Shown in pieces: positions 14,401 through 62,986 of a DNA stretch of 64,000 nt. The stretch is taken from assembly GCA_950295325.1 (NCBI GenBank), contig OX485807.1, forward strand, positions 35,060,440-35,124,439, read 5' to 3'. Origin of the DNA: Polytrichum commune (Eukaryota > Streptophyta > Polytrichopsida > Polytrichales > Polytrichaceae). Numbering within the stretch: position 1 is the stretch's first letter; every line of letters starts with the position of its first letter. The notes under the pieces were generated by a model. It had not been told where the DNA came from. It was given only the letters and a program-made list of their open reading frames with translations, and ran no database searches. A program made the position numbers and the translations under genes.

Positions 14401-16138
14401 GCCCATCGGTTTTAGCCTCCTCGTGAGTTCTTTGGTGTTGCTCCATTCGGACCACCACAACCATTTGTACTTTGGACATTCGGTCTATCGAGACCAAATT
14501 CAACTTGCCTCCTCCCGCCATAGGAGTCCTCGTCAACTTTAAAGTCATTTCCTTGCCATTACGACAAACTACAAGCCGCACCGGCTTGCGCCTCACATCC
14601 ACCGTGTGAGTCTCGAAGAAGGTGTCCCCCAAAATGAGGTCCACCTCATCCATTTCACAAAGTGTGAAATTCTCCTTAAACTCCAACGTCCCACACTTTA
14701 AGTTCACGTTCAACGCTACCTCCTTCGTCTCATGCGGCTCGCCCTTTGCGAACCGCACGTTAATGGGCTTGCCCGCTCTACCCGTTGGCAAGCCCAATTC
14801 CTTCGCAAGTTTCGGGCTCATGAAGGAGTGCGTTGCCCCTGTATCAACCAAGCATGAGACATTCCGACCATTGATTTCGGCTTCAAGGAACAAAAGACTT
14901 GGCCTTGGCTTAAGGCTACTAGCCTTGGCCACAAAGCCACCTTCTAGCATTTGGTCGGCGGTACAACCACGATTTGTCTTGACACTCACCTTGTTGTCGG
15001 GGCACGCCGCTTGAAAATGACCAAGTTTGCCACATTTGTGGCACCGCTTGTCCTTCATGTCGCCTCTTTTAATTCCTACATTGGATGGTTTTCCTCCTTG
15101 GTAGCCACCCTTGGTGGAATTTGTCCCGTCGGGTTGTCCTTTGAAATGGTTGGATGGCCCAAATTTCTTGCGCTCTTTGCCTCGAGACATATTTCGACTC
15201 GAGCCGCTTTGTTGTGCGGGGCCGCTTGACTTTCTTTCGGGGCCGTCGGCTTCAATTCTCTCCGCGATCTTAATGATCCCCGCCACGTCCTCGGGAAGCT
15301 TTGGAAACTTGAACAAGGCGTCTACCACCCACTTTTGTAAGCCACCTAAGAAAATGCATCTCTTGGCAAATTCATCCATCTTAGATGTAGCATTCATTTG
15401 GGCGTTAAAATCGCGCACATAGGCCTTAAGGGACCCCGTGTGCCTCATTTGCACCAAGTTCATTCCCTCCCGCAATTCTTGGTACTCCGGCGTGAACCTA
15501 TCAACAAGCAATTCCTTGAAGCCGACCCAAGTCAAGTTTGCCACCAACTCGGGCTCTTGTTCTTTTTTGCTCGTCCACCATTGGAGCGCATGGTCTTTCA
15601 AAAAGGTCACCGCTATGGAGACCTTGTCGTCTTCATCGGGCCTTTGGACATCGTAGTAGTTGTCCATTTCCAATAAAAATTCTTTGACCTTTCTTGCCTT
15701 ACCAAGCCCCGAAAAGGTACTTGGCATATTTACCTTGGCCAACTTCTTTGTTGAAGAAGAAGGCCTAGCCCCTTGCATCATAAGGAGCTCGATCATTTTG
15801 TCTTGGCGAGCTCTCTCGTCCTTGACACGCTTGAGCTCTTGATTCACGGAGTCCATGAACTCAAGCATTTTGAGTTGGAATTTTAATCCAACATCACCAC
15901 CTTCCAAGCTTTCGGGCGCATTTGGAAGTCTAGCCCCCGAATTTTCTTCGAGGTTTTCGGGACCCCTTTCTAGGGACTCCTCCACTTCCTCACCGGTTGC
16001 ACCATCATCCCCACCATTGTTAATAGACTCAATGGCGGGGTCAACATCCTCTTCAACATGATCTTTGTTCCGTTTTGAGCGTCGCAACTTTTTAGAAGTC
16101 CCCGCCTCACCATCGTTACCCGCACGTTTGGTAGCCAT
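11498..16138 (-). CDS. Gypsy Gag-Pol polyprotein with C-terminal chromodomain, one in-frame stop
   Basis: A single frame encodes 1428 residues from ATG at 16138, then TGA at 11852-11854, then about 117 more codons in the same frame. Domains in order are: gag retrotransposon domain (about 150-290), CCHC knuckle [14 protein letters not shown] (about 366), aspartic protease DTGATHSF (about 433), reverse transcriptase with YIDD (about 775), RNase [12 protein letters not shown] (about 920), integrase zinc region ending CVKCQ (about 1150), and integrase core with [18 protein letters not shown] and the [12 protein letters not shown] glutamate. The chromodomain ([20 protein letters not shown]) lies after the TGA. 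Related copies read CAA (27253 region) at the stop position, so TGA is a nonsense change. The chromodomain marks the element as a chromovirus. Confidence 0.93.
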
Positions 16139-16170
16139 CTCTCCTTCAAAGTGCTAGCTCAAAGACGAAA

Positions 16171-23749: not shown

Positions 23750-25575
23750 CTTGAGGTATGTGGTGACAAAGGAAGTTGGTGGACGAACATGAAGAATGTC
23801 AAGGCAATCCAAAAGGAGAATTGGCCCTTGATTCAAAAAGGGCTTAGGTCATTTGTTGGCCTAGCCAATTAGTACCACCACTTCATTCGAGAGTTTTCTA
23901 AGGTTGCTAGGACCTTATTCAACTTATTGAGGAAAATGGCTATCCCAAGAGTGGGATGAGCCTTGTCACCAAGCCTTTGGGGGGCTAAAAAACAAGTTCT
24001 CTTCGCCGCTTGTGCTTAAGTTCGCGGACTTTGACAAATCTTTTGAGGTGCATACGGGGGCGAGTGACTTTAGCATTGGCGGATGTTGAGGCAAAATGGA
24101 TGGCCATTGCACATAAGAGCATGAAGCTCAATGGTTGTCCGACCTTGTCCAACTTATGCAAGAAATGACTGTCCCAAAAGTGGGATGAGCCTTGCCACCA
24201 AGTATTTAAGAAGCTTAACACCAAGTTCTCTTCGCCGCCCGTGCTCAAAGTTTGCGAAATTTGACAAACCTTTTGAGGTGCATACGGGGGCGAGTAACTT
24301 TACCATTGGCGGATGTTGATCCAAGATGGATGCCCATTGGATATGGGAGCATTAAGCTTAAAGGTTGTCAAACCTTGTGCGACTTGTGAAAGAAATGGCT
24401 ATCCCAAGAGTGGGATGAGCCTTGCCCCAAAGTCTTTGGGGAGCTTAATACAAAGTTGTCTTTGCCACCCGTGTTCAAGTTCGCGGAGCTTGACAAACCT
24501 TTTGAGGTGCATACGGGGGGAGCGAGTGACTTTGCCATTGGCGGATGGTTAACGTAAGTTGGATGGCCATTGCATATGAGAGCGTTAAGCTTGATGGTTA
24601 TCCGATCTTATCCGACTTGTGGAAGAAATGGCTATCCCAAGAGTGGGATGAGCCTTGCCACCAAGTCTTTGGGGAGCTTGAGAGCAAGTTCTCTTAGACG
24701 CCCGTGCTCAAGTTCGCGGAGCTTGACAAACCTTTTGAGGTGCATACGGGGGTGAATGACTTTGCCAATGGCGGATTGTTGATTTAAGATGGATGGCCAT
24801 TGCATATGGGAGCATGAAGCTCGATGGTTGTTAAAGAAGACAACCAACTCATGCCAAACAACTTCTTTGCCGTAGTGCATTACTTGAAGATGTGGCGACA
24901 CTATTTGGGGTCGCACAAAGCAAAGGTCTACAAGGACAATGTGTCCTAAAAGAATTTTGACATTCAAGCGCAAGTGAGCGCCAAGTCATTGCGGTGGCAT
25001 GATAGTTTGGCGCTTATGAACGTGGATTTGATCCACAAACCGGACTGTGGAAATGTGGTGCCGGATGCGCGAAGTAGACCGGAAGAGTTCCAAGCAATGA
25101 GAACCATCCAAACCTTGTGGCTAATGTGTGCCGGCGAAGGAAACTTGTGATGCAAGATACGGGAGGGGTAAATTAACTACCCAAAAGCACAAAAGCTTTT
25201 AGGTGAGCTTCGCAAGAGCAAGGTGCTCAAAGAGGCTAAGTTGGTGGACGGATTGTTCAAGTGCAAGCAAAGTTGGGTGTATGTACCACAAGGCAAGTTG
25301 AGGCTATCGGTTTTGAAGGAGGAATTTGATAGTCCTATTGCCGGCCTTAGAGGAGAAAGAAAAAACCGCCATAGAATGATATCATGGAGGTACCATTGGC
25401 GGTGCATAAAGGAAGATAAAGCCACTTTGTGAAGGCTTGAATCAAAGTGCCAAGTGAACCGAGCCTCTTACCAAAAGCAAGGCGGTTTCTTGCAACCGTT
25501 GCCTATCCCGTCGGCGCCATGGCATAGTATGTGCATGGACTTGATCACAAGTTTGCCGGAGTCACATGGGTATGA
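23750..25575 (+). pseudogene. Sense gypsy pol relic: RT edge, 229-bp units, RNase H, integrase zinc region
   Basis: It begins inside RT (the TTGAGGTATGTGGTGAC block), passes about four 229-bp units between 23980 and 24790, RNase H (24830-25180) and the integrase zinc region (25200-25575). Frameshifts and stops are frequent. The reading stops at a TATGA target site and resumes at 26551 after a solo LTR. Confidence 0.82.
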
Positions 25576-32860: not shown

Positions 32861-33974
32861 CAGGGTTGTCTATCGCGACGTCATGACGGTGTCGTGCCGT
32901 CATGTCGTGCTGTCATGTCGTGCCGTCATGTCGTGCCGTCATGTCGTGTCGTGTCGTGACGGACCCCTCCGTCACGACACAATAGGGTCCACGTAGGGTC
33001 AACATAGGGGGAACGGACTAGGGTGGGTAAAATACTTACCTTCTTGCCAAGGTGGCGTCCTATGTGGCAGAAAACGCCGACGTGGTCGTGGATATGCCTA
33101 GCGCCAGGTAAATCATTTTGCCATTTTGTTTACCATTTTGTTAAAATCAAAGTAGTAAAAAACGACTAAGGAGGGTGTGGGGCGGACGGGGGACGAGGGT
33201 GGGGCGGACGGGGGTGGGGGGGGGGGGGGAACGGAGCGGACGGGGTCGGGAACGGGGGCGGACGGGGGGGGGGGAATTTTTTATTTTTTTTTAAATGGGG
33301 CGGACGGGGAAGGGGGGGCGGGAAAAAAAATTTGGGGCGGACGGGGGAGCGGACGGAGGGGCGGACGGGGGGGGAACGGGGCGCGGACGGGGGGGAACGG
33401 GGCGGACGGGGTTGGTAACGGGGCGGACGGGGGGGAACGGGAGCAGACGGAGGGGGGGAAATTTTTTTTTAAAATGGGGCGGACGGGGAAGGGGGGGGGG
33501 AAAAAAAAAAAAACTGGGGCGGACGGGGGGGAACGGGGCGGACGGGGTTGGGAACAGGGCGGACGGGGTCGGGAACGGGGGCGGACGGAGGGGGGGGAAA
33601 TTTTTTTTTTAAAAAATGGGGCGGACGGGGGAGCGGACGGAGGGGCGGACGGGGGGGAACGGGGGGGGGGGAACGGGGCGTACGGGGTTGGGAACGGAGC
33701 GGACGGGGTCGGGAACAGGGGCGGACGGGGGGGCGGACGGGCTCTAGTAAATTTTTCCCCACTTTACCTTTACTTTGCTGACATATCATCACACGTGGAC
33801 ATTGTAAATCCTACGTGTCTGAATTGGGTTAATGTAATTACACAAAAAAATCGGTAAAATTCAAGTCCGTCAGGATAAAGACAGCATCCGGCATAATATC
33901 GTGACGGATACGTGTCGTGACGGCACGACATTATGCCGGGATTACCCTCCGTCACGACACAATAGACAACCCTG
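32861..33974. mobile_element. Non-autonomous hAT-like element, 1114 bp, in the CACTA transposase
   Basis: Both ends show CAGGGTTGTCTAT inverted repeats followed by diverged CGTSATGACGG-like sequence, and the element is flanked by a perfect 8-bp duplication GGGGGAAG (32853-32860 and 33975-33982). CAGGG termini and 8-bp duplications are hAT hallmarks. The subterminal zones are packed with short GTCATGTCGTGCC and CCGTCACGACAC repeats. It has no transposase; the centre is a G-rich minisatellite. Confidence 0.88.
33170..33745 (+). repeat. G-rich minisatellite (GGGGCGGACGGGG units)
   Basis: Degenerate tandem units of GGGGCGGACGGGG with spacers such as TCGGGAAC, broken by A/T-rich interruptions. 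Long open frames over this stretch on both strands are composition artefacts. The density of G-runs on the plus strand would allow G-quadruplexes. Confidence 0.9.
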
Positions 33975-34581
33975 GGGGGAAGTGCCGTAGAACCTTGTTG
34001 GGCACGCTGGACATGCCCACTGTCTTAAATATGGGAGCGTTGCATAATGGGCATGTCGCCATTTCAGCATACTCGCCTCTGAACAGTACACACCCATTTT
34101 TGCATGCGTCAATCGCGTCGTACTTTAGTCCTAGCCGCAGTAGCATGCGTGTGGCAACCCCCTCACTGCCCGGTAGCGAGTTTGGAGAAGGTAAAATAAC
34201 CTTCGACAACAAGTGGAGCAGTTCGCTGATGCATGCATTTGTCGCTTTGTGCGTACGGCAAACATTCATCAACATCAGTGTCGCATCTAGTTTCGAAACA
34301 TTTGATCCGCAGAAAAGAGGAGTTGAGGACTCAACATGCATGGCTGCCACGCTGCGTCCTCCCGGCTGTCCCCAGTCCTCCTCGCAGCCATCCCTGTCCT
34401 CTGCTTCGTGTTCAAAGCTTCCTTCGCTGTCATCCCCATCGCTTCCACTCTCTGAGTCGCTCCTGCTCCCCAACATGCACTCTGCGTGCCGTACAAACAA
34501 CCAGGGAAGTTATTGTCTCTATCCAATGGCAGCTTCAGTGTGCATCCCACACACAAGTGCCACGTCCTCTAACATATCGAT

Positions 34582-45005: not shown

Positions 45006-47073
45006 TTATTTACCAAAATCAACCAGAGGACACTCAATAAACCATGGACAAGACTGCAAAGTGGCATAATCCCATATTCTTATCTGGGTTGCCGTAAAAA
45101 TGCAAAGGTCACTAGATTTGTCACCCCATGAAGAGAAACAACTTGGAATGGAGCCCAGGAAGATGGCATTTGAAGCCAATAACTCGTTCTTTATGTACCT
45201 TTGACACAAACTAACAAGTTTATTGAAGTTAGTGAATTAATTACTTCAAGGCAAACTTCAAGCATGCAATGAAATAATAGAAGCTATAAGATAAAAAAAC
45301 AAGATAGAGTACCTGAATACCACTCGTTTGATAGCAATGCCTCCACCAAAAACTTTACCGAGTAGACTAGATTTTATAAATGCATTCATGCCACCAAAAA
45401 AAGGCCGGAATACTTTTGTCCAAAGCATAATGTGCCATTTTTCAATGTACTCAGTAGGCTTAAGTATATGTGCGCTCCAAAAAATCTTGACATTCATTTC
45501 TTTTTCCATATCCTCAAATTGTTTCACAAAACCATCTTCCAACTGCAAAATGACACATATGCATCACAACCATTGAACAAATCATAAAACATTAAAATTT
45601 TGAAATGAAAACACGTAGACATTTAAGGATGAAGGAAAATCTGGGCCCAGAATGACGCTTTGATCAACCATTTTTCAAGTTTTTTTTACTTGATATCTCC
45701 CAATGGGAAGCGCAGAGATTCACGGGACATCTCGTTAGAATTCCACCACCTCAACCATTTGATTTTGAAGATTGATTCCACTGGAGCAGTTGCAATCATT
45801 TGCAATTTCTCTAGGGTCATGGTAGGCTTGAAGTGATTTCCAAAATGTTTATTGATCTCCGAAATAGAATGTGAAAATAGTGAAAAAATCTCATATAGAA
45901 TGCCGAAATGAATGCTACAAAGAAAAACATAATGACTTACCTCATCTAAGAAGTCAAACCCATTGGCTGGATTTGCAACAGCGAGAAGTTTTTTAAATTC
46001 TTTTCCACGAATTGATGATATTGCTTTTTTTGTTGCATTCTGCATGACATCCCAAATACCTTTTGCTCTTCTTGATTGAAGTGGAGTTTTCTCATTGTAT
46101 TTACGATATGTCTCTTGGTCATAGAGGTTATCTCACGCTACATAAACAAAAAAATAAGAATTAGTTAAAGATTCATTAGTAAAAATATCTTCAATAACAA
46201 GGCTCAACATGAATTAGAATACCCACCTTGTATAGAAACTGAGTAAAGACTTCCAAAGTGAGAGTATACCAAGTTCCCTTTCCACCTTTCTTCAAACTCT
46301 TGGTGTATTGATCAGGGGTAAAAAAATCTTTAAATTCCTCCAACTTCCTGATTCCAAAACTTTGGACACGATGGAGCTTGTGAACCAAATTTGTCTTGAC
46401 ATTATCTGATTCCGTAGACCTAAGAGATGTGACAACAAAAATATCAAAGACTTTTATAATTTGAAAATCATAAACCAAAAAATTAAAAAAAAAACACGGA
46501 CCATAAAACATACATGTTCACATCATGCATAGCATTTAGAAGAAGGGCCACCGAACCAGTTGATTCAAGTACGATACAATCAACAGAGTAATGCCAATCT
46601 CTATTTTGAAACGTCTGGGTCTGCTAGATGCGTTCCGCGTCGTTGTCTTCGCCGCCTAGGTCGAGTGTCTCCATGCGGACATCCTCCATCCACGCGGAGG
46701 CCAGCTGGTCCTGCGTAGGGTCCTCTTCGACGTCCATCCTTTGGACACTTGCCGCGTCAATGGGGCTCCCCTACGTGTCCTCCACAATGACCACGTCCGT
46801 GTGTTGCACAATATCATCGCCCTACCTATCTACTACCTTGGGAACGACGGTGAAAGAGGCCGTGTCCCTGTCTGAGGGTCGTCCTACCCTTGAAGGGGGT
46901 GGGGTGAGGACTGCCGAACTTGAAGATTCACGAACGTGCATTCGTAAACCCTCGTCCTCTCTGATGGCCGCCGAGATCGCATCGTGGAAGGTGGCGGTGG
47001 TCGCTTGCACTTCAGGGGGCGGAGGAGTGCCCACCGGCGTTGGGTGGGGTTCAAACTCAATAGTCAACATCAT
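45006..47073 (-). pseudogene. Truncated paralog of the ParB/methylase-like gene
   Basis: Minus-strand exons match 56490-57830 of the plus-strand gene in order: HYSVDCIVLE...LLLNAMHDVN (about 46510-46600), STESDNVKTNLVHKLHRVQS (46230-46420), KKAISSIRGKEFKKLLAVAN (45940-46060), a block ending RESLRFPLGDIK (45686-45830), LEDGFVKQFE...AIKRVVFR (45310-45548) and RYIKNELLASNAIFLG...CPWFIECP (45006-45195). The intron after the AMHDVN block has the same place and phase as in the plus gene. The DGNHR segment and the whole methylase part are absent, a TAA interrupts the frame at 45686-45688, and one donor is lost. The GC-rich frame 46640-47073 may be an unrelated first exon. Confidence 0.75.
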
Positions 47074-47668
47074 TGAGGAATCTTAAATGTTCAAATTTTG
47101 AGCACAGGAACCTTGACTTTGACAATGAATAAGATACACATATGAGGAAAACTCATACTCCTTCAATTGAGATTTGTTAACCATCATATGCTAACCCCGT
47201 GTTTCATATCCTATGAGAAGTAGGCTAGTTGAAAAATGTAACCATTTGCAACCCATCTACCTTCAGTTCATAATTTAACAATCAACTCCTTCCTTGAAGT
47301 GGGAGCAGCCCAACCCCTTCGCCAATGATCGGGGAGATTTTTGGGCATAATCGGTTGAGATCCTAGTGTTTGCAAGTCCAACTAGTTACATGTTAACATC
47401 CTTCGGTTTTCCTTTATTAAATTGGGGTAAATTCTATAGATTCCTCTAAAATGATTGGTAATTTTCATGCAATCTTGAACTTCAGCCGATTATTTCTCAA
47501 ACTCAACTGGTTTATTTGTAACTAACTACCAGTTCTCCCCGATCATAGCGCTTCACCCCGGAGCTTGGGAGTTGTTGGCCACCTTTGGGGGCCCACAACA
47601 CCGGAATTCGCCCCTTGCCCGGACCGGCTCCTTGAAGACTGTATGGTTGGGTCAAAGTTGCTTACTTA
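47074..47668. other. Spacer between the paralog and the 12.4-kb element
   Basis: No gene is visible. ATGATCGGGGAGA near 47325 is repeated in inverted form near 47535 (TCTCCCCGATCAT), about 200 bp apart, a weak foldback. The last bases, CTTA at 47665-47668, form the left target site of the following element. Confidence 0.5.
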
Positions 47669-47695
47669 GGGCCGGTTTAAACCATGGACCATGAA
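47669..47695 (+). repeat. Left terminal inverted repeat
   Basis: GGGCCGGTTTAA followed by ACCATGGACCATGAA. Further ATGGTCC-type subterminal copies follow to about 47757. It is preceded by CTTA. Confidence 0.78.
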
Positions 47696-48120
47696 CTCGG
47701 ACCATGGAAGATGGCCCTTTTCCATGGTCCGACTTGATGGTCCAACTTCCATGGTCTGATTCTTTAAAAAGTCAAGTTACAAAGACTTTGGACTCCTCAC
47801 TACGTGTAAACCAAATGTGGACCAAGAGGAATGACCATCCACCAAAAAGTGAATGTGTTGATTTTTCTTAATATATATCCAAGAAAGGCAATTTTGGGAA
47901 GGAAAAAAAAATCAATTTCGACCATTCTCGTGTCTTTATCTTCTCTATCCCATAAAAAATTCATTAAAATTTTATTATAACATCATTTCTCTACCATGGA
48001 CCCCTACCCTTTCTACTAGAGAACCTCTTTTGCCTCTCCCACCCCAAAACCTGTTGGACCATGTTAATGAATAATGTTGACCTTAAAATATGTCTTTTGG
48101 GGACCTAGAACTTGAGGGAA

Positions 48121-48203
48121 GCTATCTTATGAGCGATGAGCAGTAAGCGGTGAGCGGTGAGCAGTAACACATGAGCAATGAGCAGTATATATGAGCAATG
48201 AAT
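48121..48203 (+). repeat. Left subterminal GAGCRRTGAGC repeat cluster
   Basis: Begins CTATCTTATGAGC and continues as tandem octamer-like units (GAGCGATGAGCAGTAAGC and variants). Its inverted counterpart lies at 59826-59884 with the same CTATCTTATGAGC block, which supports the two ends belonging to one element. Such clusters are typical transposase-binding zones. Confidence 0.75.
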
Positions 48204-48309
48204 CCAAATTTAGTAAAGACACACGGGTTTAGGGTACACAACCACAATTTTGACAAATTAATTGCATATTTTCAATTGTAAATTGCAAGTATTTAAAATG
48301 AAACATAAG

Positions 48310-49120
48310 TGAAAGGGCCCTATTGCCATGGATCATTTAAAGCACTTTCAATACATTGCTGATTTTTATTATAATAATCCAAACAAATACATGTAATTTA
48401 TTGACATCCTTATACATGTAGTTACAACCAACACTTGTACAACTACTCACATTCTACAACAGCAGCAAATTCAAGTAGGTGCATAACCTCATTATACGTA
48501 TATGTAGGTGCCATAATTGTGAGCCACTCAAACCGCTCACGGGTTGAATTAAGGCCCACAATCTACAAAAACAAGGAAATTAGATAATAGAAATTGTCAA
48601 TATGTAGGTAGTTACTAGGTTTTGAGACATCCGCCTGTGGATGCGAGTTGTGTAAGAGACTGGTATTAGGTCTGGATCAACCCGGGTTCGAATCCGGTTG
48701 GTTACATTGACTGGTGCTATCCCAAATTGAGCTAGTGATAAAGCAGGAATAATCTATAGGCGGATACCAAGAAGACATTACTACGCGGATGTGCGTAGAA
48801 TCTTCTTAATTATTTTTTATTTTTAGAAACTTGTTATTATTTATCCGTATGAATAAATGAAACCGCTCACGGTTGGGTGTAGTCTAAATAGAAATGAAGT
48901 TACTGAATCATTTGAAATACTTTCAGTCCATTGCTAATTTTTATTATAATAATCCAAACCAAAACATGTCATTTATTGACATTGAAATATATGTTGTTTA
49001 ATAGAACACTTGCAATACTACTCACATTCTACAATACCAGCAAGTTCAAGTAGTCGCATGACCTCATTATAGGTATATGTAGGTGCATGAATGAACTTGT
49101 CACTCTCGTAATCCACCTTG
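48310..49120 (-). repeat. Tandem duplication of the transposase 3'-terminal exon
   Basis: 48310-48560 repeats 48893-49120. The outer copy reads APTYTYNEVMHLLEFAAVVECE behind a good acceptor (TTTTTGTAG/ATTGTG); the inner copy reads APTYTYNEVMRLLELAGIVECE and is part of the gene. The outer one could act as an alternative last exon. Confidence 0.75.
48601..48833 (+). mobile_element. tRNA-derived SINE-like insertion
   Basis: It contains a near-consensus polymerase III B box (GGTTCGAATCC at 48685-48695) about 40 bp after a degenerate A-box-like GAGTTGTGTAAG, and it ends in a T-rich tail. It lies between the two copies of the duplicated terminal exon. No clear target duplication was found, so the ends are approximate. 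Confidence 0.5.
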
Positions 49121-50326
49121 CACAAAAATCTAAACACATAATAAAGATGTTTACAATACACCCATTTTCCTTTCTTTCCCAATGCATGAGAGGACATTTT
49201 CGTGAAATCCGGGCATGTGCAATGCGGGATGTCGCCAATTGTCACATGGTAGGTGATATCCTGCTTAGAGACAATGTTGATTATCACTCCAAAGCCCGGA
49301 TATGGAATGGCAGTGATCCCAACCACATAGTAACCCTCCATGAGTCCGGCACTCTCCCATTTGTTTTTGTGATCCGCTAGCGGTGCTGTTGGATTACGAC
49401 GCACTGTCTTCCCAAACCTGAATGTAGGGTGGGCATCCGGGTTTGGTGGCATAGAAAAATGCGAGTGAGGGATGGGGAGAGTTGCAATTGTTGAAAGCCT
49501 ACGACGAGGGGACAATGCCTCCCTCTGCTGTAGTTGAAATCCAGCATCTTCAAGTGCCAAAACCTCCTCTCTCGATAGATTGGTACCTATCTTCACCGGC
49601 CACGTGTTGGGTACTATAGGCCAGTCCAACACATATTTCTTCTTACTGCCACTCACACAACGCTTGATGTCGTCAGGGCAAAACCAAAATTCATACTCCA
49701 CATTGTTGGGAGATCGAAATTCCTTCCTGAGCCCTTTGTATGTTGGGGCAGGTGTGCCATGTTTCCCAGTCCCGATTTTAGCATTGCACATAGTCCCTGT
49801 AATGGCCTGCAGTGTCCAACATCGTTTGGCTGAGTTGGGTGGTAATCTTGCAATGTGCCAGTTGGAAGTAAGACAATTAGTCTCTAACACGGATGTAGTA
49901 TGAGCCACACCATGAATTGCAGAACTCAACGATTCCTCTATGCGTTGACGAGTTGCTCGGGTGTTGGGACGAGGAATGGAATAGTTCACTTTGTCGGGTC
50001 GATGAGAGTCACAATCAGCACCCGGTGGTAGGTTGAGTTTGCGTTTGGTGGAACCAAAGAGTTCTGACCCTTCCAATGCACAATCTCTAGTGTTGACGTC
50101 TTCTGCCCCTGGGTAAGACTTCATGGCATCAACCAACATTTTTGGATCTCCACACCTGGCAGCTGCTTTGAGTTTCAAGGAGGCCGAATCAGGACCTTTA
50201 CCATCAGACCCCCCTTTCAACTATGTCCGGTAATTTGCAATTTGCATGAAGGCACGGATCATGTCGTCCACTGTAGCTTCATATAAACAAGTCATCTTGT
50301 TGCCGGACTGTTGGAGCCATTTGTTG

Positions 50327-50793
50327 TGTACAGTCTCTGCAAGGTTGCATGTTGGCATTTCCGCACGCTCTTCTATTGTCATATCCTATGAACAACACAC
50401 AAATACAAGGATAAAACAAACATAAGATAGATTATATATCTAGGTTTGGGTCGTTCGACCCAAAATGGCTGCCACGTTTGGATCGAACGACCCAAACTGC
50501 CTACAAGGTTTGGGTCGAACGACCGAAACTGTTTGCGCAGTTTAGGTCGTTCGACCCAAAATGGCTGCCATGTTTGGGTCGAACGACCGAAACTGTTTGC
50601 GCAGTTTGGGTTGTTCGACCCAAAATGGCTGCCACGTTTGGGTCGAATGACCCAAACTGCATACAAGGTTTGGGTCGAACGACCCAAACTGTTTGTTGTT
50701 TGTTGTGTACAGTCTCTGCAAGGTTGCATGTTGGCATTCCCGCACGCTTTTCTATTGTCATATCCTATGAACAACACAGAAAGACAAAGATAA
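50327..50793 (-). repeat. Duplicated intron-exon boundary flanking palindrome array 1
   Basis: About 90 bp at 50327-50416 (acceptor and first codons DMTIEERAEMPTCNLAETVHNK) are repeated at 50704-50793 (DMTIEKRAGMPTCNLAETVHNK). The copies bracket the array at 50444-50690. The distal copy has no intact exon behind it. Confidence 0.85.
50444..50690. repeat. Palindrome array 1: eight 20-bp palindromes, 32-bp period
   Basis: TTTGGGTCGTTCGACCCAAA, or the form with AA at the centre, begins near 50444, 50477, 50509, 50541, 50573, 50605, 50637 and 50669. Spacers of about 12 bp repeat among themselves (TGGCTGCCACG, CTGTTTGCGCAG, TGCCTACAAGG). The array lies in the transposase intron (50386-50844). The geometry resembles a CRISPR, but the spacers are not unique and this is a eukaryotic transposon, so I do not call it one. 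Confidence 0.92.
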
Positions 50794-52980
50794 GAAAAAT
50801 ATAAGATATATTACATTGAGTAATGAAGTTTGATATGTACTTACAAGTAGCATATGGCCATCCCATTGTCTGTAACGAAAGTGCCAAAATCCCAACCACT
50901 CTGAAAGGCCAAGGATGCCTTCTTCGGAAGCAGCTCCAGATGACAACCACCAAGAACGAATCACATGGTACTTGGTCTCAGCGTCGTCCATTGTTTTCGC
51001 GTCTTTGTAATCCTTGCATATTTGTTTATGTTGAAATTGCAAGGATGGTTTGATATACTTTTGGGTCACCTTATCCAAGCTTGCGGACCAATGGAAAAGA
51101 CATGTACGCTCACGTGCAACAATGGGTAGACTTGGATCACCATCCCCGTAAATCGCCCTCACCGCATTCCAATTAGCTTGAACACTATCAGCCATAAACC
51201 CTTTGAAGTTTACGTTTGGTACACAATTTTCTGCCATGACAGCATTCAAATTTTCCCCAAAGAGAATTTGTGTTGCACCATCTTCAGATTGCATGTCACA
51301 ACACGCAATAGTCAACACTTTACAGTATCGACTGTCGTACACATGGCAAGCCATGGTCGTCCAGTCCTTCAAACGTTTGACATGGTCAAACATAATCCAT
51401 GAATTCTCCATATCCCCACCGACTTGCATCCTCTTTACAAGCTCCACACCACTACCTGGAAGGTCTACAGACATTTTGAACACAAACACTTTGTCCTTTG
51501 ACTGCCCTGGGAACCGACTACCATGGACGAATTTGAAAGCAGAGTGGTCTTTGAGCGCCATAATACTATCCATAGTTCCCATTCCACTACGCAAAAAACG
51601 CTTTGATCCAGATACAAAGTTACGACAATTTGGAGACGCAAGAGTGCTGAATTTGTCCATGACGACCTCTAGGGATGAACCAACCAAGTGATGGCCTTCG
51701 ACATTTGCGGGAGATTTGAGAAGGTAATCGGCCAAGAATTGTTTGCTCGCCGTCATAACTATGGCTGATTTTTTTACTATGGGTGTTTTCAATACTTCAT
51801 TTGCAACGCATTGGTATGCCATGTCCAATGATTCACGGCATGTGCCATTGGCCATAGGGTGATCATGTACACCAAGATGAATGCAAGCCCTGGACATTCC
51901 AACGGATGTGGAGTGGATGTATATGATTCGAGCATTATACAAAGCAATGCACACAGGTGTGGAACGACATACCTTACACTCGACAGTGGACTTAGTAGGG
52001 GGAACAACACCCACAGCAAATGGGATAAGAGTTGAACCGGCCCATTCAGTGTTGTTCCGGAGGCCCCCATTGCGATTCATGTAATCACAGTAGTCATTAT
52101 GACATTCGAGATGACCAGCACAAGTAGAGCGCCGGAAGGACAGTCCAAAGTCATTTTGGATATTCGTGGTTTTGGTGGTGCACCAAGGGTGACCGTCGCA
52201 CATCTTGTCCATGCCGTCCATTGAGCGACCATACGTACTTGGAGCTTTGAGTGCCACAGGAGGCAAGAGAAACAAAACATCACCATTAAAAGAAGATGGT
52301 AAGTACTTGACTTCACGAACATCTATACTGTCAAAATCAATGGATGCAAGATCGGACTTTGATCTTTTTCTTGACTTTGTCAGCTTCAAGGCATCAATCA
52401 TAGTCAACCCTGTAGATGAAGGTGAAGGGTGTAGTGGAGGACGTTGAGAAGGTGAGATTTGGGGAACCACCTTCTTGTACATAAGACCGCAAGGGGATTT
52501 GGCTACATGTATAGGAAGTTGGGAAGGAGTAGAATGAACACTTCTAAATGGAAATGGCGATGTGTTTGAAAGATCAATAGATGCACAAATGTCATCTTCT
52601 GAATCTGATAGCACAAACACACTATCATCAAGGGGTTCCACCTTAACAGATGCGATAGAGGGAATTTGAACTGTGGATGTACCGGATTCGTTTGTCAAAA
52701 TGACAGTTGAAGCTTGCATCTGAGACTCAGAAAGTCCTATCACCCTAAATGAACCAGGTCCTAGGATCCACATAAAACCAACATCAGTTCTATTTTTTGG
52801 AACCAAAATCGTTTCATGCACCTGTCCATTTGCAGAGTACATCTCATGCTTTAAATACATGGTTCCTATCTGGAGGTTGAATCTCAAACTAAGTAAATCC
52901 TCTGAAACACTCACATGACCATCATCTTAGAGTGGCAAGATGAAGGGAACAAAAGATCCATGAGCTCTAATGGTAGCCAT

Positions 52981-53502
52981 AGAAAATCAAAAGAACATAT
53001 GAACAATACATCACAAAAATATGGGGTGAATGTTACTTTTGTATAGAGTTGTGTGAGGAAATGAATGGAAATGAAAACGTGTGATACAATAATGGATGGA
53101 GATGAAAGCGTGTGATACATAGCATCTAATAATACAGAAGTGGACATAACACAATAATAGTCAGGGAATATTTACGAGCAAAATATACACAAAATGGCGT
53201 CAAATACTAAAAATATTGGTAGAAATTTAAAATATATATGTGTGGACTGACGTAGATGTAGAAAGAATTAAAATTGGTTGGAAAAATAAATTATTGATCA
53301 TTATGAATAGAACAAAGTAGGTGTCAGAAAATTTTGGTGGATATAACAAAAATAAACACATAATGACAAATGCGTCGAAATATCTCGCTCATTGAACGCC
53401 AATTACAACATGTGATCATAATATACGCCGGATTTTGTGAGATAGATACATTGGAAGAATAAATGATAGTATCTGATAGAAAACATATCATAGACACCAA
53501 CG
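52981..53502. promoter_or_regulatory. Divergent promoter region between the two element genes
   Basis: The start codons inferred for the two genes face away from each other across about 520 bp of AT-rich DNA. I see no convincing TATA box or other defined site; the role is inferred from gene orientation only. Confidence 0.4.
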
Positions 53503-53904
53503 ATGGTGGACGATGTAGAGAGAACACCCGTGAGGCCGAAGAGAAGACGTAGGAAAGCTTTGTATTTCACTTCCGAGAAAAAGAGGTTCAGACTGAGTGT
53601 GGGAAAGAAGAATGCAAATAAGAAAGGGAAAAGAAACTTGTTGAGTACGGTAGAGGAAACTGTGAAGACACTGGATTTTGATGCGATGGAGGATGATGAA
53701 GGTGCAAAGAGTAAAGAAGATGTAGACGATCGTATATCAGAGTCCGAATTAAAGACGGGTTCAAAGAAGATGACAAACAAAAAGGTAAGTCAGTGCAACG
53801 TTCACATAATTTGACAGTGCATAAGTTGTAAGTTAGGACGGAGAACCTTGTACGCTCACATGTCATGTAGTAGCAATTTATAGAGGTTATAAATTGGAGA
53901 GAAG

Positions 53905-54540
53905 AAACCCTATACGTTAATGCACATGGTATATAACAAAAATTTAGGAAGGCTAGAAGTCAGGAGGAGAACGCAGAGGGTTTATAAGAGCAACTTAGGA
54001 GGCGAGAAGTTGGGAGATAAAACCCTATATGTTAACGCACAGGGTTTATAAGAGCAACTTAGGAGGCGAGAAGTTGGGAGGTAAAACCCTATACGTTAAC
54101 GCACAGGGTTTATAAGAGCAACTTAGGGAGGCCAAAAGTTGGGAGCTAAAACCTTGTGCGTTAACGCACAGGGTTTGTAATAGCAACTTAGGAAGGCCAA
54201 AAGTTAGGAAGGGAAACCCTGTGCGTTAATGCACAGGGTTTGTAAGAGCAACTTAGGAGGCAAAAAGTTGGGAGGAGAAACCCTGTGCGTTAACGCACAG
54301 GGTTTGTAAGCGCAACTTAGGAAGGCCAAAATTCGGAGCTAAAACCCTGTGCGTTAACGCACAGGGTATGTAATAGCAACTTAGGAAGGCCAAAGTTGGG
54401 AGCTAAAACCCTGTGCGTTATCGCACAGGGTATGTAATAGCAACTTAGGAAGGCCATAGTTGGGAGGTAAAACCCTGTGCGTTAACGCACAGGGTTTGTA
54501 AGAGCAACTTAGGAACGCCAAAAGTTGGGAGGTAAAACGA
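53905..54540. repeat. Tandem array with a 22-bp palindrome, about 64-bp period
   Basis: About ten units, each with half-site CCCTGTGCGTT followed by its complement (GTTAAC at the centre), then TTTGTAAGAGCAACTTAGG and AAGTTGGGAG. Palindrome centres fall near 54163, 54227, 54291, 54356, 54420 and 54484. The first units are more degenerate. It lies in intron 1 of the ParB/methylase-like gene. Confidence 0.9.
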
Positions 54541-54959
54541 CTAGGAGAGCCTAAAAGTAAAACAAATATCTATTGTATGAATTTAAATCGATATTCAGAG
54601 CGTAAGACCAAAAAAACTATTCAAAACGGGGTTAGAATGCAAGAAATGAGAAATATGTCTACTCAAGTATTCATGCAATACGTTATAGGAGCTAGAAAAT
54701 GACACAAAATAGCATAATTTTTTTTTTGCCCCGAAACCCAAATCTACGAGGTGGCCCAAAACAAGGAAATAGATAGAAGAATGACAAAAGAAAATGATTT
54801 CAAACCAAAAAAAAATATGAGAAGAATTTTTAGCTACGGAAATTTAGATAATATAGCATATTTTTGTTTTTTTTTGGACCCCATTAGCATTTTTTCCAGA
54901 TTTTACAAGTTTTGGCAAATCTATCAATTCCAGAAAAAAGTTTTTTATAAAATTCATGC

Positions 54960-55085
54960 CTCGGCCCTGTGCGTTAACGCACAGGGTCTATGCGCTAACG
55001 CACAGGCCTTATGCGCTAACGCACAATGGCTAGAAAGTTGCCAGCGCAGACCCTGTGCGTTAACGCACAGGATCTACGCTGACAA
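54960..55085. repeat. Cluster of the same 22-bp palindrome and shortened forms
   Basis: Full palindromes at about 54965 and 55050 and partial TATGCGCTAACGCACA forms between them. TTGCCAGCG and CGCTGACAACTTTCTAG on the two sides pair imperfectly. Another full copy is at about 55628-55650. Confidence 0.8.
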
Positions 55086-55309
55086 CTTTCTAGCGGCTAT
55101 GCGGGGCCACGAAGAGCCACGCTAAATATGGCTGCAGGGACGAGTAGTATAAATTGCCACACCCCCAAAGCATTCAGTTTTTTTTCTCTCATCTGTCGGA
55201 CCTGAGCTCGTCGCTGCAAACTCTCTCATCTACAGGTGCAGTACAAGGTTTGTTTGTGCTTTCGTGATGACAGGGTAATTGCGCATAATCAGGCGTAAAT
55301 TGCGGACAG

Positions 55310-55590
55310 TTTGGGTCGGTCGACCCAAACTGTGAGCATGGTTTGGGTCGGTCGACCCAAATTGTCCGCCTAGTTTGGGTCGGCCGACCCAAACTGTGAG
55401 CATGGTTTGGGTCGGTCGACCCAAACTGTGAGCATGGTTTGGGTCGACCGACCCAAACTGTAAGCATGGTTTGGATCGACCAACCCAAACTGTAAGCATG
55501 ATTTGGTTCAACCGACCCAAACCACGCGTAGAAAGTTTGGGTCGCTCGATCGAAACTGGGTGGACAGTTTGGGTCGTTCGACCCAAACCT
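55310..55590. repeat. Palindrome array 2: nine 20-bp palindromes, 32-bp period
   Basis: TTTGGGTCGGTCGACCCAAA and variants recur every 32 bp (34 bp once), with 12-bp spacers, mostly CTGTGAGCATGG. It shares the palindrome with array 1 but not most spacers. It lies in intron 1 of the ParB/methylase-like gene. Long minus-strand frames over it are artefacts of the repeat. Confidence 0.92.
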
Positions 55591-58500
55591 CGCGCCCAAC
55601 TTTTGTAGACCTGTAGTTGGACACAAAGACCCTGTGCGTTAACGCACAGGGTCTGCCCTTGTAGTTTTGGGGTGAGCGGCCACCGTAATCGTACAATATT
55701 TAGAGGTGCAAATGGCAATGTGTAGAATAATTTTTGTCATTTTTCCCTGTGTTCGTGGTATTATATTGTTATTGTTGTTGGTTTTGTAATGTTATTGCTA
55801 ATGTGTTGCTACTGGTTTTGGAATATTTATGAAACTTATTTCATTTGTTTTAGGACGAATCAATGGATTTGGAGAGAACGACTCTTATTTCGACTGATGA
55901 TGATTCTACAATGCATTCAACTCAAGATCGTCCATCTCAACAGGTTCATCATCATCAGGATATATCGTCAAATCTTCATAATAAGAAAAAGAAAAAAATA
56001 AATGTATTCCTAGATGATTTTGACTCGGATGAAGATAATGATGGTGACAATAAAACCTATCAAGAGAAAGTGTGGGAGCTTACGAACAAACGAAAGGTCA
56101 ATTCCACTTCCACAATTTCTTCAATCCGTGCTGGACCTAATGCTCGCTTGCGTGAACCTTTATGTCGCATGGTTCCTATGCCGATTGTGCGTCCTGCTTT
56201 AAAGGGTGACATTACTATATTGGAGGCTGATTTTTTCAATGGTTATCGTGATGGTGACCGTGTGTTTTATATATCGGCCACCGATTCTAAGGAAAACTTT
56301 CAATTCGTGGATGATGAGGTTCGCGCATCTTGGAGCCCAAATTGGGCTCAAGCCAATGCCCTGTTTGAATGTCAATTGGATACATATTTGTCATTGACGT
56401 CATACAAGAACAAGATGTTTTTTATATGGGATGGAAATCACAGATTTTTTGCTTGGAAAAATTATATTGACCGCGTATATACCGAAGATTATGAACGTCA
56501 TGTCTTCGTGGATTCTGTCATTTTGGCGCCCGAGCTTGACGACATTTCAAGTTTGTTGACTGCTATGCATGACATCAACAAGTAATGTTCTTACCTATTT
56601 TTTTATACTTATTTCTAGTTTATATTTCGTTTTCCAAATTATATCATCATGAATGTAATCAATTTAATTTTTTTTTCAGGTCAACCGAAAATTCTCACGT
56701 ATCCACCAATTTGGTGCATACTTTATATCGGATGCAAAGTATAGGCACCATGCCTTTGACTTCCTTCAAAAAGCAACTGGATCCAAAGAATTATAAACGA
56801 TGTGAGGAGAAGTCCGTTGAAACTTGGTATTCTTTGACAGGACCATTTTTTTGGATTACATGTACAGTGTAAGTTCTTCTACCATTGCTAATATGTGCCT
56901 TAGGTTTATTCATCTTCATTTTACATTACATCTATATGTACTTATAAATATTGACTTTTGTTTGATTTTTCAGCAAGAACTTGCTGAGGCTAGCGATATT
57001 GCTCTCAACCAGTACAATGAAACTCATCCTCTTGAACGGACATCAGACGGAGTTTCAAAAGCAATGTCCGCAGCTGTCAACAAAAAACGTGCATTGTTAT
57101 CTTCTAGTTTTACGAAACAACTAGCGATTGCCGACATCAACCTTACCTCTGCTTTCCTTGAAGAAATTAAGCACCATTGGGGTTCATTTTCGGTGCCTGA
57201 AATGCTACAAGAGAAACTTCATCGTGTTGCTGTCAGTAATGTGGATTCAGAAGTCAAAGTTGGATGGCTCAAGCTTTGGAATGGCTATAGATTTGACAAA
57301 GATGCATTGCATTTCCCGAAATCGCCCCTCTCTGATTCTGCACTTGATGATTGGTTATCAAAGTCTACATATTGGGCACAGTTGGAAAAAAAAGCTATCG
57401 AAGAGCTTCAAAGTATTCTTTCATCTCCTCTTCAGTTGCCTGCAGATGTGCCTACTCTCTCCGAGTATATCCAAACCTGGAAGTTTGCGGCTTTCAATTC
57501 AATATTCTATCGTGAATTCCAAAGCGGAAAAGTTAAAAAACACAACGGTTGGGATGAGCAACCTAATATTGATCTTGCTATGAAACGTGTATTATAGAGG
57601 TACAACCTAATCTTATTATTTTTTTTGATTTTTTTATTCCATTTGTCAAATTGTCATGGAATATTTGACTTACAATATTTGACTTACAATATTTTTGTGG
57701 GTAGGTATTTTCGATATGTTTTGATTCCACATAAATGCGTTATAGGGGAACCTCGTTTTTTCCCAAATTGGCGTGACACTGGTGCAGGAGATTCATGCAT
57801 GTTCACTACTGAGATTTGTTTGGATTGGTCGCTCCCACACTATGAGGATTGTGGTTGGTATCTTGATTGTCCTAAGGATGCATGTCCGTCAAGTGAGAAG
57901 ACAATCCGTCAGATAAATGATGCTAAAAATGTGGATCCTCGTGATACTGCAATTTTGCAAGCACAAATTGTGCAGCTTAAACTTAGAGAGCCAGAACCAA
58001 AAGAGACAAAACGTCGTAAGAGGAAACATGTTCCTGAAACCAAAATACAAGGTCAATCGGAAATTTCACAACATGAAGAATTGCTTGTTCTTTCCAATGA
58101 TTTGGATAAGAATCCACTTGGAGGCGAAAGTTCAAAGTCTGGGTGCGATGTATTGGAATTTTATTACTCCAGCACCTATGACGCTATTCATCGTGCGCCA
58201 ACGGATATTTTGAGAAAAGAGTTATTCATACTGAAGAACTTTCTCACGCTCTCGTTTGCTCGATCTACTGCTGTCAAGAACAAGTCTAAAGGGGTGAATG
58301 TAGGCCCTCCTGAGTGGATCCAATGGCGGGAATTTATTGAAAACGTAAGTATTATTGTTTTGGTATTTTCTCTAATGTTCTTACTTTCATTTGGGTTTTA
58401 TTTTGTGTCTTATATTGTAATATGTTGTGGTATTTCAGTTCAATGACAATCGCGAATTTCATATCATGGGAAGTCCGACTCCCTTTGCTATTGACTTGGT

Positions 58501-59825
58501 TTTTCTGCAATTTTCCGACGGTCTTGACTTCAACCTCTCCAATAAACCTGCTGAAATTCCTCTTTGGAATAAATATGACAAGAACTGGATGGTTGCAACA
58601 ATGTCCTTGTGCAAGTCCATCTTGTCTGATGATGACGTCCTCATAGTATTTTCTGCTATCGATATGCAAACCAAGAAGGTTTTGAATTCAACCTTACACA
58701 ACGGCAACATGAAAGTTCTTAGGACTTTTATTTGCCTCAATTCGTACATGGTGTTCAAGGATCCGGAGTCTCCAACCTACACCGTAAGTATAACACATCA
58801 CAATTGTTTCTATTTAATTATTTTGGTGTTATTTGCATTGTATATAGTTTTAACACAATTTACATTTTTTTGTAGACTCCGGCATTTATGGCTCATCTCT
58901 TGGTAAGGGATTTTACTACCACAAAATCCACGAGACAACCAAACTCCACTTTTTTTGGCACTGGATTGAAAAGAAAAAACTTGCTTTTCAATTTTGTGGA
59001 TGAAAAAAACATGCTTCTTCAAAAATCGGGAAGACCTTGGAGGGGGCCATATCAAAAATCGCCGCATTTTTTTCAAGATCTTATTGAATTGTTTACACCA
59101 TCGAATGGACGCGTTGTTGATTTGACATGTTCCACTGGAGCTTCTATCCTAGCAACACGCGCATGTGGCAGACATCTTCTTGCATTTGAGGGTGATAATG
59201 ACATGTTTGAGCACATATTGAAACCGCTTTTGGAAAACGTTTTGAAAGAGGGATCATCTAAGGAGAATATACAAGATCTCACAAAAGAAGATGATGACCT
59301 CTCGGATGAGGAGATGCTTGAATTTGAGTGTGAGTAAGTTTTAATACAATAAATTTTTATTCAATTCATTCGTTTCATTCAATTCATTGGTTCATTTTTA
59401 TTTTTTCACATTATTTACATGTTTCATCGATTTGATTTCAGGAATACGATTGGAAAGAGGACATGTCTCCCGTTTTGGGCACATAGACAATTCCTACGAA
59501 GTCCAAGCCGTAGCCCGCGTCTCCCATCATATGCCGAGAATGTTGCAATTGCAATGTTGAATCTCGAAGATTCGGATCCAAATGAAGAATCTTGCTATAG
59601 TTCCAAAATCAATTCGCAATGCAAAGGTGCTCGAATATATATAGATGACGAGGCAAAAGATAGTTTCATGTCTAGTGCTACTACTGATGAATAAATTTTT
59701 GGACTTCATGTTGTTTATCCTTCTCAACCCTCTTATTACTAAACCCTAAAATCATCATTTTTAAGGCCACAATTCCACGGTTATAGGATATTGGTGGCCC
59801 TATTACCAAAATTTTCATCTTCCTC

Positions 59826-59884
59826 ACTGCTCATAAGTTACCGCTCATCGCTCACCGCTCATTGCTCACCGCTCATAAGATAGC
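59826..59884 (-). repeat. Right subterminal repeat cluster
   Basis: GCTCACCGCTCATTGCTCACC-type units, ending GCTCATAAGATAG, the complement of the left cluster at 48121-48203. Confidence 0.75.
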
Positions 59885-59998
59885 ACTCCCCCCTAGAACT
59901 TCATGGTCATTCTAACATTTTCTCCTTGATGTAAACCGAAGTCATCCTGAAATGAGTTCAATAACGAATCACAAATTTTATAGGGCCTTGGGACCCAC

Positions 59999-60025
59999 TT
60001 CATGGTCCATGGTGGAAACAACCCC
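59999..60025 (-). repeat. Right terminal inverted repeat
   Basis: TTCATGGTCCATGGT followed by GGAAACAACCCC, then TTA at 60026-60028. It is complementary to 47669-47695 with five mismatches. Confidence 0.78.
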
Positions 60026-60028
60026 TTA

Positions 60029-61234
60029 GGGTGGACGGTGGGCAAATAATGTAATGTAGAATTTACTTTTTGAGGTCTTTATGATGTTTTCCTAATATAT
60101 ATGTCTGTATATATAGGTCTGTATGGATTTCTAGTAAATTCCTACTTAAGTCTTGAGGTATCACACCTATAGTTGTATCACGGAAGACCGTGATCAACAA
60201 TAGGCTAACGGGCTCTCAGTCACGTATGTACTTGGCTACATGCATTATTATTTTATTTTTTAGAATTTATTTATTCTTGAATATTTGATTAATTTGTAGG
60301 ACCTCTCATATTGCAGTGGCTAGGGAAAGGTCATTGTGATGGAATATGGTAGGTATCAGAAGGATAACAAAATTCTATTTTGGGTCAGAATTTGACATAT
60401 ATTATTCAGACTGAATGTGGGGAATGTTCCATGGAACATTGTCAATCCCACATAACATTGTTATGGATCTGAATAATATTATGAAATCATATACTCATTT
60501 GGATCTAATAGGTGTTGATGTGGATTTTTCAAACTTCAAACTACAACCTCACTTCAATGACACACCTACAACATGTCCGTTAAAGGTGGGCAAGGCATTT
60601 ATATTTGTACAAAGATCTACACTAAATTTGGAGTTTAGTGTGCCACCAATTCTATTTGTTTTGCTCAATAGTAGTCGTAAATCGCCCATGCAGTACTACC
60701 AACACTAAATGTAAACCTCACATGATTCGTCATTCCTTGCAAAAAACAAAAAAACTTTAGGCATTATAGATTGGAATCATTAAATCGACCATGTAAGTTG
60801 GTTAAAATGACCATAGAGATGCGCCGCGTGGTCTGTGAGCCCAAAATGGTGCCCACGTGTGGTGATTAACTCTTCGAAACCAATTTTAGTTTGACTTTGA
60901 TGTGTTATGATGATTCACAAAACATAAAAAGAGTGAAGTGTGGTGTGGATTTAACTTTAGGCATTAGGTGGTGTTGTGTGATTATTTCAAGGTTGATTTC
61001 AATAAGAGGATGCCTTGATTATGTGAGTAGGGGGTAAGGTGAGGCAAGGTGAGCTCCGCGGGTTAAATGCCCACTTTTGGATCCACCTTGGTAGTTTAGG
61101 AAGAAGGAAGCTTGGTGGATGGGGATTAGTCCCTACTTTGGAGGAGAGGGTTAAAGGATTGTGATTGGAGGTGCTAATCCTCTCACCCTATCCTCACTTC
61201 TCTCTCCCTCTCTCCCTCTCTCCCTCTTTGCTAC
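60029..61234. other. No supportable gene
   Basis: AT-rich sequence. A perfect 18-bp palindrome AATGTTCCATGGAACATT lies at 60423-60440 and a 97-codon frame at 60415-60708 is unrecognised. A CTCTCC microsatellite lies at about 61200-61226. Confidence 0.5.
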
Positions 61235-61238
61235 TTAA

Positions 61239-62155
61239 CCCCTAAAGGACCGTAAGGCCCCCATGGGGCTTTTGATTGTAGAAAAGTGCAAATTGGATGA
61301 GATTGTTCCAAAGAAGTCCAAATTTGCGGGGAGAGGACCCTAGCTGTTTTTGCGAGATGGATCCAATGGTCTTTTCCGATCAGAAAATGATGAAGGATTG
61401 GATTTTTGGCGAATTCTTTGAGTTTTCAGTTTTGGGCCCAATCTCATTGCTTGGAGACTTCAGAGTCCCATATTTTTTTTTCCACAACTCAAAATTTGAT
61501 GAAAAAAATTCCACATGAGGGTCATAATGTTCTTTACATGTGGTAAAAATTTTAGATGTTTTGGAGCACTTCTAAGGACCGTAAGGCCCCCAGGGGGCTT
61601 TTGATTGTAGAAAAGTGCAAATTGGATGAGATTCCAAAGGAGCCCAAATTTGCGGGGAAAGGACCCTGACTTTTTTTGCAAGATGGATCCAATGGTCTTT
61701 TCCGATCAAAAAATGATGAAGGATTGGATTTTTGGCGAATTCTTTGAGTTTTCAGTTTTTGGGCCCAATCTCATTGCTTGGAGACTTCAGAGTCCCATAT
61801 CTTTTTTTCCACAGCTCGGAATTTGACGAAAAAAATTCCACATGAGGATCATAATGTTCTTTAAATGTGGTAAAAATTTCAGATGTTTTGGAGCACTTCT
61901 AAGCAATCTGATTCCAGCATAAGTACGAAGTACCCCCTGCCCAAACAATTTCCATCAATCTTCTCAACGGTGGCAATTTCTCAGAAATTGTGCGATCTTG
62001 TCGATCTTTTTTTCATAAACAAGCTATGTAAGTCTTCTTTAGTTTCAACGGTGCCGATTGTGAAAATTACCCCACACTAATAAGAAATTGAGCTTGCTAC
62101 AAGAGCTAATCAAGAAAACATGACCTAAGCTAAAACACCCCCGGTCCTTTAGGGG
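61239..62155. mobile_element. TTAA-flanked DNA element, 917 bp
   Basis: Perfect 14-bp inverted repeats CCCCTAAAGGACCG (61239-61252) and its complement (62142-62155) are directly flanked by TTAA on both sides (61235-61238, 62156-62159). TTAA target sites are used by piggyBac and Kolobok elements. There is no transposase; most of the inside is a 329-bp tandem duplication. Superfamily is uncertain. Confidence 0.75.
61245..61904 (+). repeat. Two tandem 329-bp units inside the TTAA element
   Basis: Both units start AAGGACCGTAAGGCCCCC (61245 and 61574) and end GAGCACTTCTAAG. The unit begins within the terminal repeat, so the element end itself was duplicated. Confidence 0.9.
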
Positions 62156-62524: not shown

Positions 62525-62755
62525 GTCTGGTTGAGGCTAAGCCCTGGTCTGCTGGACTGTGGGATTTTGGTAAGGCTAAGCCCTGGAGCTGCGGACTGTG
62601 GTGGTTCGGTTGAGGCTAAGCCCTGGTCTGCTGGACTGTGGGATTTCGGTAAGGCTAAGCCCTGGAGCTGCGGACTGGGTGGTTTCGGTAAGGCTAAGCC
62701 CTGGTCTGCTGGACTGTGGGATTTCGGCTTAGGCTAAGCCTTGAGCTGCCCGAAG
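62525..62755 (+). repeat. Minisatellite, about 45-bp units in alternating pairs
   Basis: Five or more units starting AGGCTAAGCCCTGG alternate between GTCTGCTGGACTGTGGGATT and AGCTGCGGACTG endings. The 68-codon frame across it (repeated AKPWSAGLWDFG) is a by-product of the repeat. Confidence 0.88.
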
Positions 62756-62986
62756 AGGGATTGATGTGAAGGCATTAAGGCTGGTTATTTGGGGAGCCTA
62801 ACCACATTGTATTAACATGAGAAGCTAGTCAAGGCTGGTTCTAATTAACCATACATTAGTATTTCTAGAAAACATTACATTAGGTGTTTAGACTTGGTAG
62901 TGCAAGCCAAGTAGTTAAGGCCTTAGTTTATTTAGAATCACGTGTGGCCTCAATTGCAATTGTAATTGTGATTAACCATTGAGGGA

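Follow-up and report, generated by a model that had tools for sequence, protein, structure and literature searches.

A decayed DNA transposon with a ParB-fold/methyltransferase-like accessory gene and palindromic arrays in its predicted introns

The 64-kb stretch of DNA analysed here (the window) contains a transposon unit of 12,357 bp (~12.4 kb, positions 47669-60025) that encloses two genes. As an earlier note on this DNA had claimed, the unit has matching inverted ends: the 27-bp terminal inverted repeats (47669..47695 on the plus strand and 59999..60025 on the minus strand) agree at 22 of 27 positions. A degenerate 27-mer derived from both ends matched only the two termini in the window with up to three mismatches, and the mean number of matches in shuffled sequences (n = 100) was 0.00. 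The inverted subterminal clusters described in the note were found as well. A 62-bp block of GAGCRRTGAGC-type units (48121..48182, plus strand) has an inverted copy near the right end (59823..59884, minus strand); the two blocks are 87% complementary, with a local alignment score of 84, as compared to at most 32 in 200 shuffles. Both the inverted ends and the subterminal blocks enclose the two genes, which confirms that the element is real. The TTA noted on both sides is present (47666-47668 and 60026-60028), but as a target duplication it is rivalled by CTTAGGG, the longest direct repeat across the junctions (7 bp), whose left (47665..47671) and right (60025..60031) copies, both on the plus strand, overlap the terminal repeats. 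As CTTAGGG extends over both junctions and the element is represented by a single copy, the length of the target duplication is ambiguous (3 bp with symmetric tips versus 7 bp). No second complete copy was seen within the 64-kb window, and the end sequence had no relatives in viral contigs. Rfam yielded 0 matches and NCBIfam none above its cut-off.

The genes in the element are divergent and spliced, in agreement with the note: the long exon of gene A on the minus strand has 53 database relatives, and exons 1-2 of gene B on the plus strand have 57. Gene A, the transposase gene (49018..52980, minus strand), consists of exon 1 (52980-50845), an intron (50844-50386) and exon 2 (50385-49018), and contains premature stops at 52929-52927 (codon 18) and 50223-50221 (codon 767). 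Its predicted fold is nearest to the ISCth4 transposase and displays an IS256/MULE-type DDE core. That gene A encodes a DDE transposase in the IS256/MULE fold class is well supported as a prediction from sequence and modelled structure. Pfam MULE/Mutator profiles did not identify it as such, as a match was found in one of 33 rows (Transposase_mut, E 0.034), and the gene A profile had a single match among PDB sequences (E 0.99), which we regard as chance; the alignment, A1, took in 32 of the 53 matches. TTA combined with GGG ends is a trait of PIF/Harbinger elements. We set this identity aside, as the transposase fold matches ISCth4.

A 118-bp duplicate in gene A (50320..50437, 92% to 50699-50816) carries a second splice acceptor and start of exon 2. 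A 3' fragment of the transposase gene is also duplicated within the element (48446-48628 and 48329-48511 / 48904-49086, copies 83%). Viral contigs contained no relatives of the transposase. A search of genome contigs identified one locus, L001 (CADCWO010000080.1, a contig of 4.1 kb), with a transposase-gene relative that is missing its 5' end and has two open exons separated by a 94-bp intron. Because of this intron we take the contig, which was binned with a cyanobacterium, to be eukaryotic carry-over, and the cyanobacterial MAG bin probably includes eukaryotic contamination. Beyond the element, no transposase relatives were recognised in the rest of the window, where tblastx fragments of L001 scored below 30 bits and were regarded as chance.

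Gene B has seven to eight exons and a predicted product of 1172 codons. Exons 1-4 (55854-56581, 56680-56866, 56974-57599 and 57705-58344) and exons 5-7 (58439-58783, 58876-59333 and 59442-59694) lie on the plus strand, as does a likely exon 0 (53503..53784; 94 codons, basic-rich), which ends in a phase-0 donor (GTAAGT) and is followed by a likely intron 1 (53785..55853). Exon 0 was placed by its open frame and splice phase alone. A premature stop is found at 57595-57597, which is codon 607 with exon 0 counted. The predicted ParB-fold domain, with a DGNHR motif, is encoded in exon 1 (56130..56581, plus strand) and runs on into exon 2. When the predicted structure of a gene B relative was compared to the PDB, ranks 1-29 were all ParB, Noc, KorB, PadC or sulfiredoxin, with one of 59 matches passing E 0.001, and rank 2 in BFVD was a phage DNA methylase (E 1.0e-3). 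This structure comparison upheld the proposal that gene B is ParB-like, as the relative is predicted to adopt the ParB/Srx fold, and membership of exons 1-2 in the ParB/sulfiredoxin superfamily is well supported by the predicted structure together with homology. No Pfam ParB profile matched exons 1-2 at E 1 in 31 rows (DndB matched one relative weakly, E 0.059), and gene B had no Pfam match above the curated cut-off, the best relevant one being N6_N4_Mtase (E 0.093). The single match of the exon 1 profile among PDB sequences (E 0.39) was regarded as chance.

The relatives of exons 1-2 have open frames of 135-327 aa. In the rows with a residue at the respective position, the Asp of DGNHR is conserved in 28/28, the His in 29/29 and the Arg in 22/29; alignments A2 and A3 took in 30 and 37 of the 57 matches. 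As the frames of these relatives remain open, we rejected a dead gene as the whole story. A search with full-length gene B scored 7994 candidates and had no match at E 0.001, because the ORFs in the database are exon-sized. The longest contigs listed for the relatives of gene A and of gene B never coincide in size, and fragments dominate, which makes this weak evidence on the linkage of the two genes in either direction. A decayed relative of gene B is located outside the element, just beyond its left end and in the opposite orientation (45027..46596, minus strand). It covers the end of exon 1, exons 2 and 3 and, weakly, part of exon 4 (E 0.005), with 28-47% identity to exons 2-4 of gene B in the element, and there is no recognised transposase beside it.

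Exons 5-6 of gene B (58439..59333, plus strand) form a DNA-methyltransferase-like region. Exon 6 matched two phage DNA methyltransferase profiles, PHROG 3008 (E 1.6e-5) and PHROG 67 (E 5.5e-5). Exons 5-6 scored 36 bits against a profile of six phage methylases, which is not independent as these had been picked via exon 6, and hhalign gave E 5.4e-8 in a single comparison to three phage methylases that were likewise picked by exon 6 itself. The SAM-binding half, which we take to comprise motifs X and I, resembles DNA methyltransferases, and the X-I part is clear. The glycine-rich motif I is altered. Of the catalytic motif IV, neither [DNS]PP[YFW] nor D-x-P-Y was found at any position of the 1172-codon product of this one broken copy. 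By eye, IDLVFLQFSDG (residue 839) is a candidate, as it occurs about where the phage relatives have VDLILTDLPYG, and GPPEW (residue 808) is another; MAFFT and hhalign aligned neither of them to motif IV. As the product has no standard motif IV, the methylase part may be non-catalytic. Should motif IV indeed have been lost, methyl transfer would be impossible for this copy. Its methyltransferase part is probably a relic that binds DNA or SAM, and less probably an active enzyme. The central claim of the note, that inverted ends bound a single element with both a transposase gene and a ParB/methylase-like one, thus stands, with ParB read from the predicted fold of a relative and methylase-like from profiles.

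In a search of 50,697 phage records with the limit at E 1, exon 1 had no match, and exon 5 had none among phage sequences even with the limit at E 10. Exon 6 matched 61 phage records weakly (the 20 listed reached E 2e-3 at best), and in viral contigs exon 6 and the single proteins P0103 and P0070 had no relatives. We rejected a phage origin by direct homology, as exons 1 and 5 have no phage matches and those of exon 6 are weak.

Palindromic sites of two types are found in the element. TTTGGGTCGNNCGACCCAAA occurs at 17 sites in the 64-kb window (at most three mismatches; expected 0.04) and CCCTGTGCGTTAACGCACAGGG at 11 (at most three mismatches; expected 0.00), all of them within the element. 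All 28 sites are in predicted introns, although for the 20 in the likely intron 1 of gene B this placement depends on exon 0. The gene A intron contains array 1 (50445..50688), with eight TTTGGGTCGNNCGACCCAAA palindromes at an exact spacing of 32 bp. The likely intron 1 of gene B contains array 2 (54023..54494), with eight CCCTGTGCGTTAACGCACAGGG-type palindromes spaced 64-65 bp apart, array 3 (55310..55587), with nine TTTGGGTCGNNCGACCCAAA-type palindromes at a spacing of mostly 32 bp, and single CCCTGTGCGTTAACGCACAGGG-type sites at 54965, 55051 and 55630. Between the two 32-bp arrays, which are more than 4.6 kb apart, the palindrome arms are 93% identical, as opposed to 23% for the centre dinucleotide and 46% for the spacer. 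This contrast was reached by none of 20000 column permutations and none of 31 circular shifts. The 64-bp array provides weaker evidence, with 92% in the palindrome versus 83% elsewhere. The arm-conserved pattern fits a dyad protein-binding site more than a simple satellite, with the proviso that arm conservation is neither independent evidence nor proof of binding, as the array units are related by duplication. Array 1 is located between the two 118-bp copies of the gene A intron-exon border and would be excised if the downstream acceptor were used in splicing. The 94-bp intron of L001 contains no such palindromic site. Perfect palindromes with arms of at least 9 are found mostly outside the element (34/50), predominantly in the Ty3-rich left part of the window.

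Other repeats occur around the element. An intact Ty3-type gag-pol ORF of 1433 aa is found at 11855-16153 (minus strand), and the region from ~2 to 38.5 kb contains integrase-like ORFs of lesser length along with perfect palindromes that recur there, with arms of 11-13. This polyprotein and the intron-bearing genes show that the host is a eukaryote; that it is a plant is plausible, as an impression. Tandem duplications with a period of ~230 bp are located at 4677-5342, 8155-8869 and 23934-24831; by eye, the units of the arrays at 8155 and 23934 are related and resemble the reverse-transcriptase/RNase H part of the local Ty3-type elements. A G-rich array of GGGGCGGACGG units (33159-33857) lies beside an ORF (33952-34509, minus strand) that by eye resembles a CACTA-type transposase fragment and has no Pfam match. 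The right flank contains a 327-bp tandem duplication (61245-61903) and a 39/79-bp array (62529-62773).

The element is best explained as an autonomous-type, cut-and-paste transposon that has by now decayed. As a tentative reading of these analyses, which we prefer while holding it at less than even confidence, its accessory ParB-fold/methyltransferase-like protein would bind the element's own intron arrays against silencing. The ParB part would recognise the intron palindromes and might spread from them as a nucleotide-dependent clamp. At the arrays, the accessory protein could counter or rewrite silencing marks, or mark the element's DNA for the transposase, in a mode akin to the anti-silencing of VANDAL elements by VANC with unrelated proteins. 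We counted against this explanation the single copy, the premature stops in both genes, the gene B relative beyond the ends with no transposase relative recognised there, the common descent of the array units, the small contrast in the 64-bp array, the Pfam scores of gene B below the cut-off, the single PDB match past E 0.001 and the dependence of 20 sites on exon 0. A ParB/parS-like system, in which a ParB-fold protein with a dead methyltransferase as reader loads on centromere-like palindromes, spreads and excludes silencing chromatin, is doubtful. If true, it would represent anti-silencing that is convergent with VANC and built of bacterial or phage partition parts.

The methyltransferase-like exons 5-6 allow another reading, in which gene B of intact copies encodes an active N6-adenine or N4-cytosine methyltransferase that ParB guides to element DNA, with a mark that would help the element to transpose or to evade silencing. 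The available text of one report offers a similar reading for the Ectocarpus protein, which has the same architecture and a proposed binding and modifying role (PMC12477816), and GPPEW could be a changed motif IV. We nevertheless consider this reading unlikely for the protein, given that the product of this copy has neither [DNS]PP[YFW] nor D-x-P-Y and that motif I is altered. It is similarly improbable that the ParB-fold part serves transposition instead of anti-silencing, as a nuclease/NTPase or an end-bridging factor in excision or integration. DNase or NTPase activity is possible for ParB-fold domains, and a ParB-methylase of B. cereus nicks DNA, as stated in the consulted part of PMC5512222; gene B also adjoins the transposase. 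The palindromic arrays, however, are internal and far from the ends, and the subterminal repeats, which are possibly there for the transposase, differ from the palindromes in sequence.

The arrays might also be neutral satellite expansions and gene B a passenger, captured or left over from another element. This would agree with the gene B relative that stands beyond the element ends, with the abundance of other tandem repeats in the window and with the site-free intron of L001. We find it quite unlikely, as distant arrays share palindrome arms and not whole units, exon 1-2 relatives keep both open frames and the Asp and His of DGNHR, and similar genes are found in unrelated algal transposon types. 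That 47669-60025 is an accident of two unrelated neighbouring elements is highly improbable: the one visible copy and the ambiguous target duplication would permit it, but the two genes lie within one set of matching ends and matching subterminal blocks, each pair inverted, and one palindrome family occurs in the introns of both. The palindromes in the introns of both genes are a candidate target for ParB-methyltransferase proteins, in an element with a different transposase class. Such a candidate target opens the proposed role of these proteins to a simple binding assay.

A target duplication of 8-11 bp is given for MULEs in the consulted part of PMC6446971. Compared to MULEs and IS256, the direct repeat here is 3 or 7 bp and there is no Pfam MULE match. 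Gene B resembles phage and bacterial ParB-methylases in its N-terminal ParB fold and methyltransferase-like C-terminus, both predicted, and unlike them it has introns and a long middle region without recognised relatives beyond the gene B family.

A ParB-methylase gene is not unprecedented in such transposons, contrary to the earlier note, as algal cases have been reported (PMC12477816). In the available text of that report, Sola1-1_Ec32 of the brown alga Ectocarpus encodes a protein with ParB and DNA-methyltransferase domains opposite its transposase, green and red algal cases are cited, transposons of unrelated types are described with comparable genes, and the accessory proteins are proposed to bind and modify the DNA of their own element. 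In the element described here, ParB-like and methyltransferase-like regions are likewise combined in one gene opposite the transposase. The two accessory proteins share both domain types and are alike in size (1104 aa there, 1172 predicted codons here), and in both cases the accessory gene is on the strand opposite the transposase in a large DNA transposon. The elements, which we likened by description, differ in that the transposase is of the predicted IS256/MULE fold class here and Sola there, in that the standard motif IV is missing here, and in the intron palindrome arrays, of which the available text makes no mention for Sola1-1_Ec32. The literature searched, with limited terms, yielded no report of an IS256/MULE-type transposase or of palindromic intron arrays beside a ParB-methyltransferase gene. 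Within that literature, the palindromic intron arrays and the different transposase class are new, and the ParB-methyltransferase accessory gene was already known.

The arrangement of the arrays resembles that in VANDAL21. According to the consulted part of PMC5735166, short motifs are amplified there in tandem, both in introns and in upstream regions, and the VANC protein that binds them causes DNA methylation to be lost. As in VANDAL elements, short motifs (28 palindromes) are amplified in noncoding regions here, and both systems combine a DDE element, an accessory gene and short motifs as tandem repeats in introns. The accessory protein here is ParB/methylase-like, unlike VANC, and the proteins are unrelated; a Pfam search at E 1 with exons 1-7 of gene B gave no match to the VANC domains DUF1985 and DUF287. 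Anti-silencing via motif amplification may have more than one origin.
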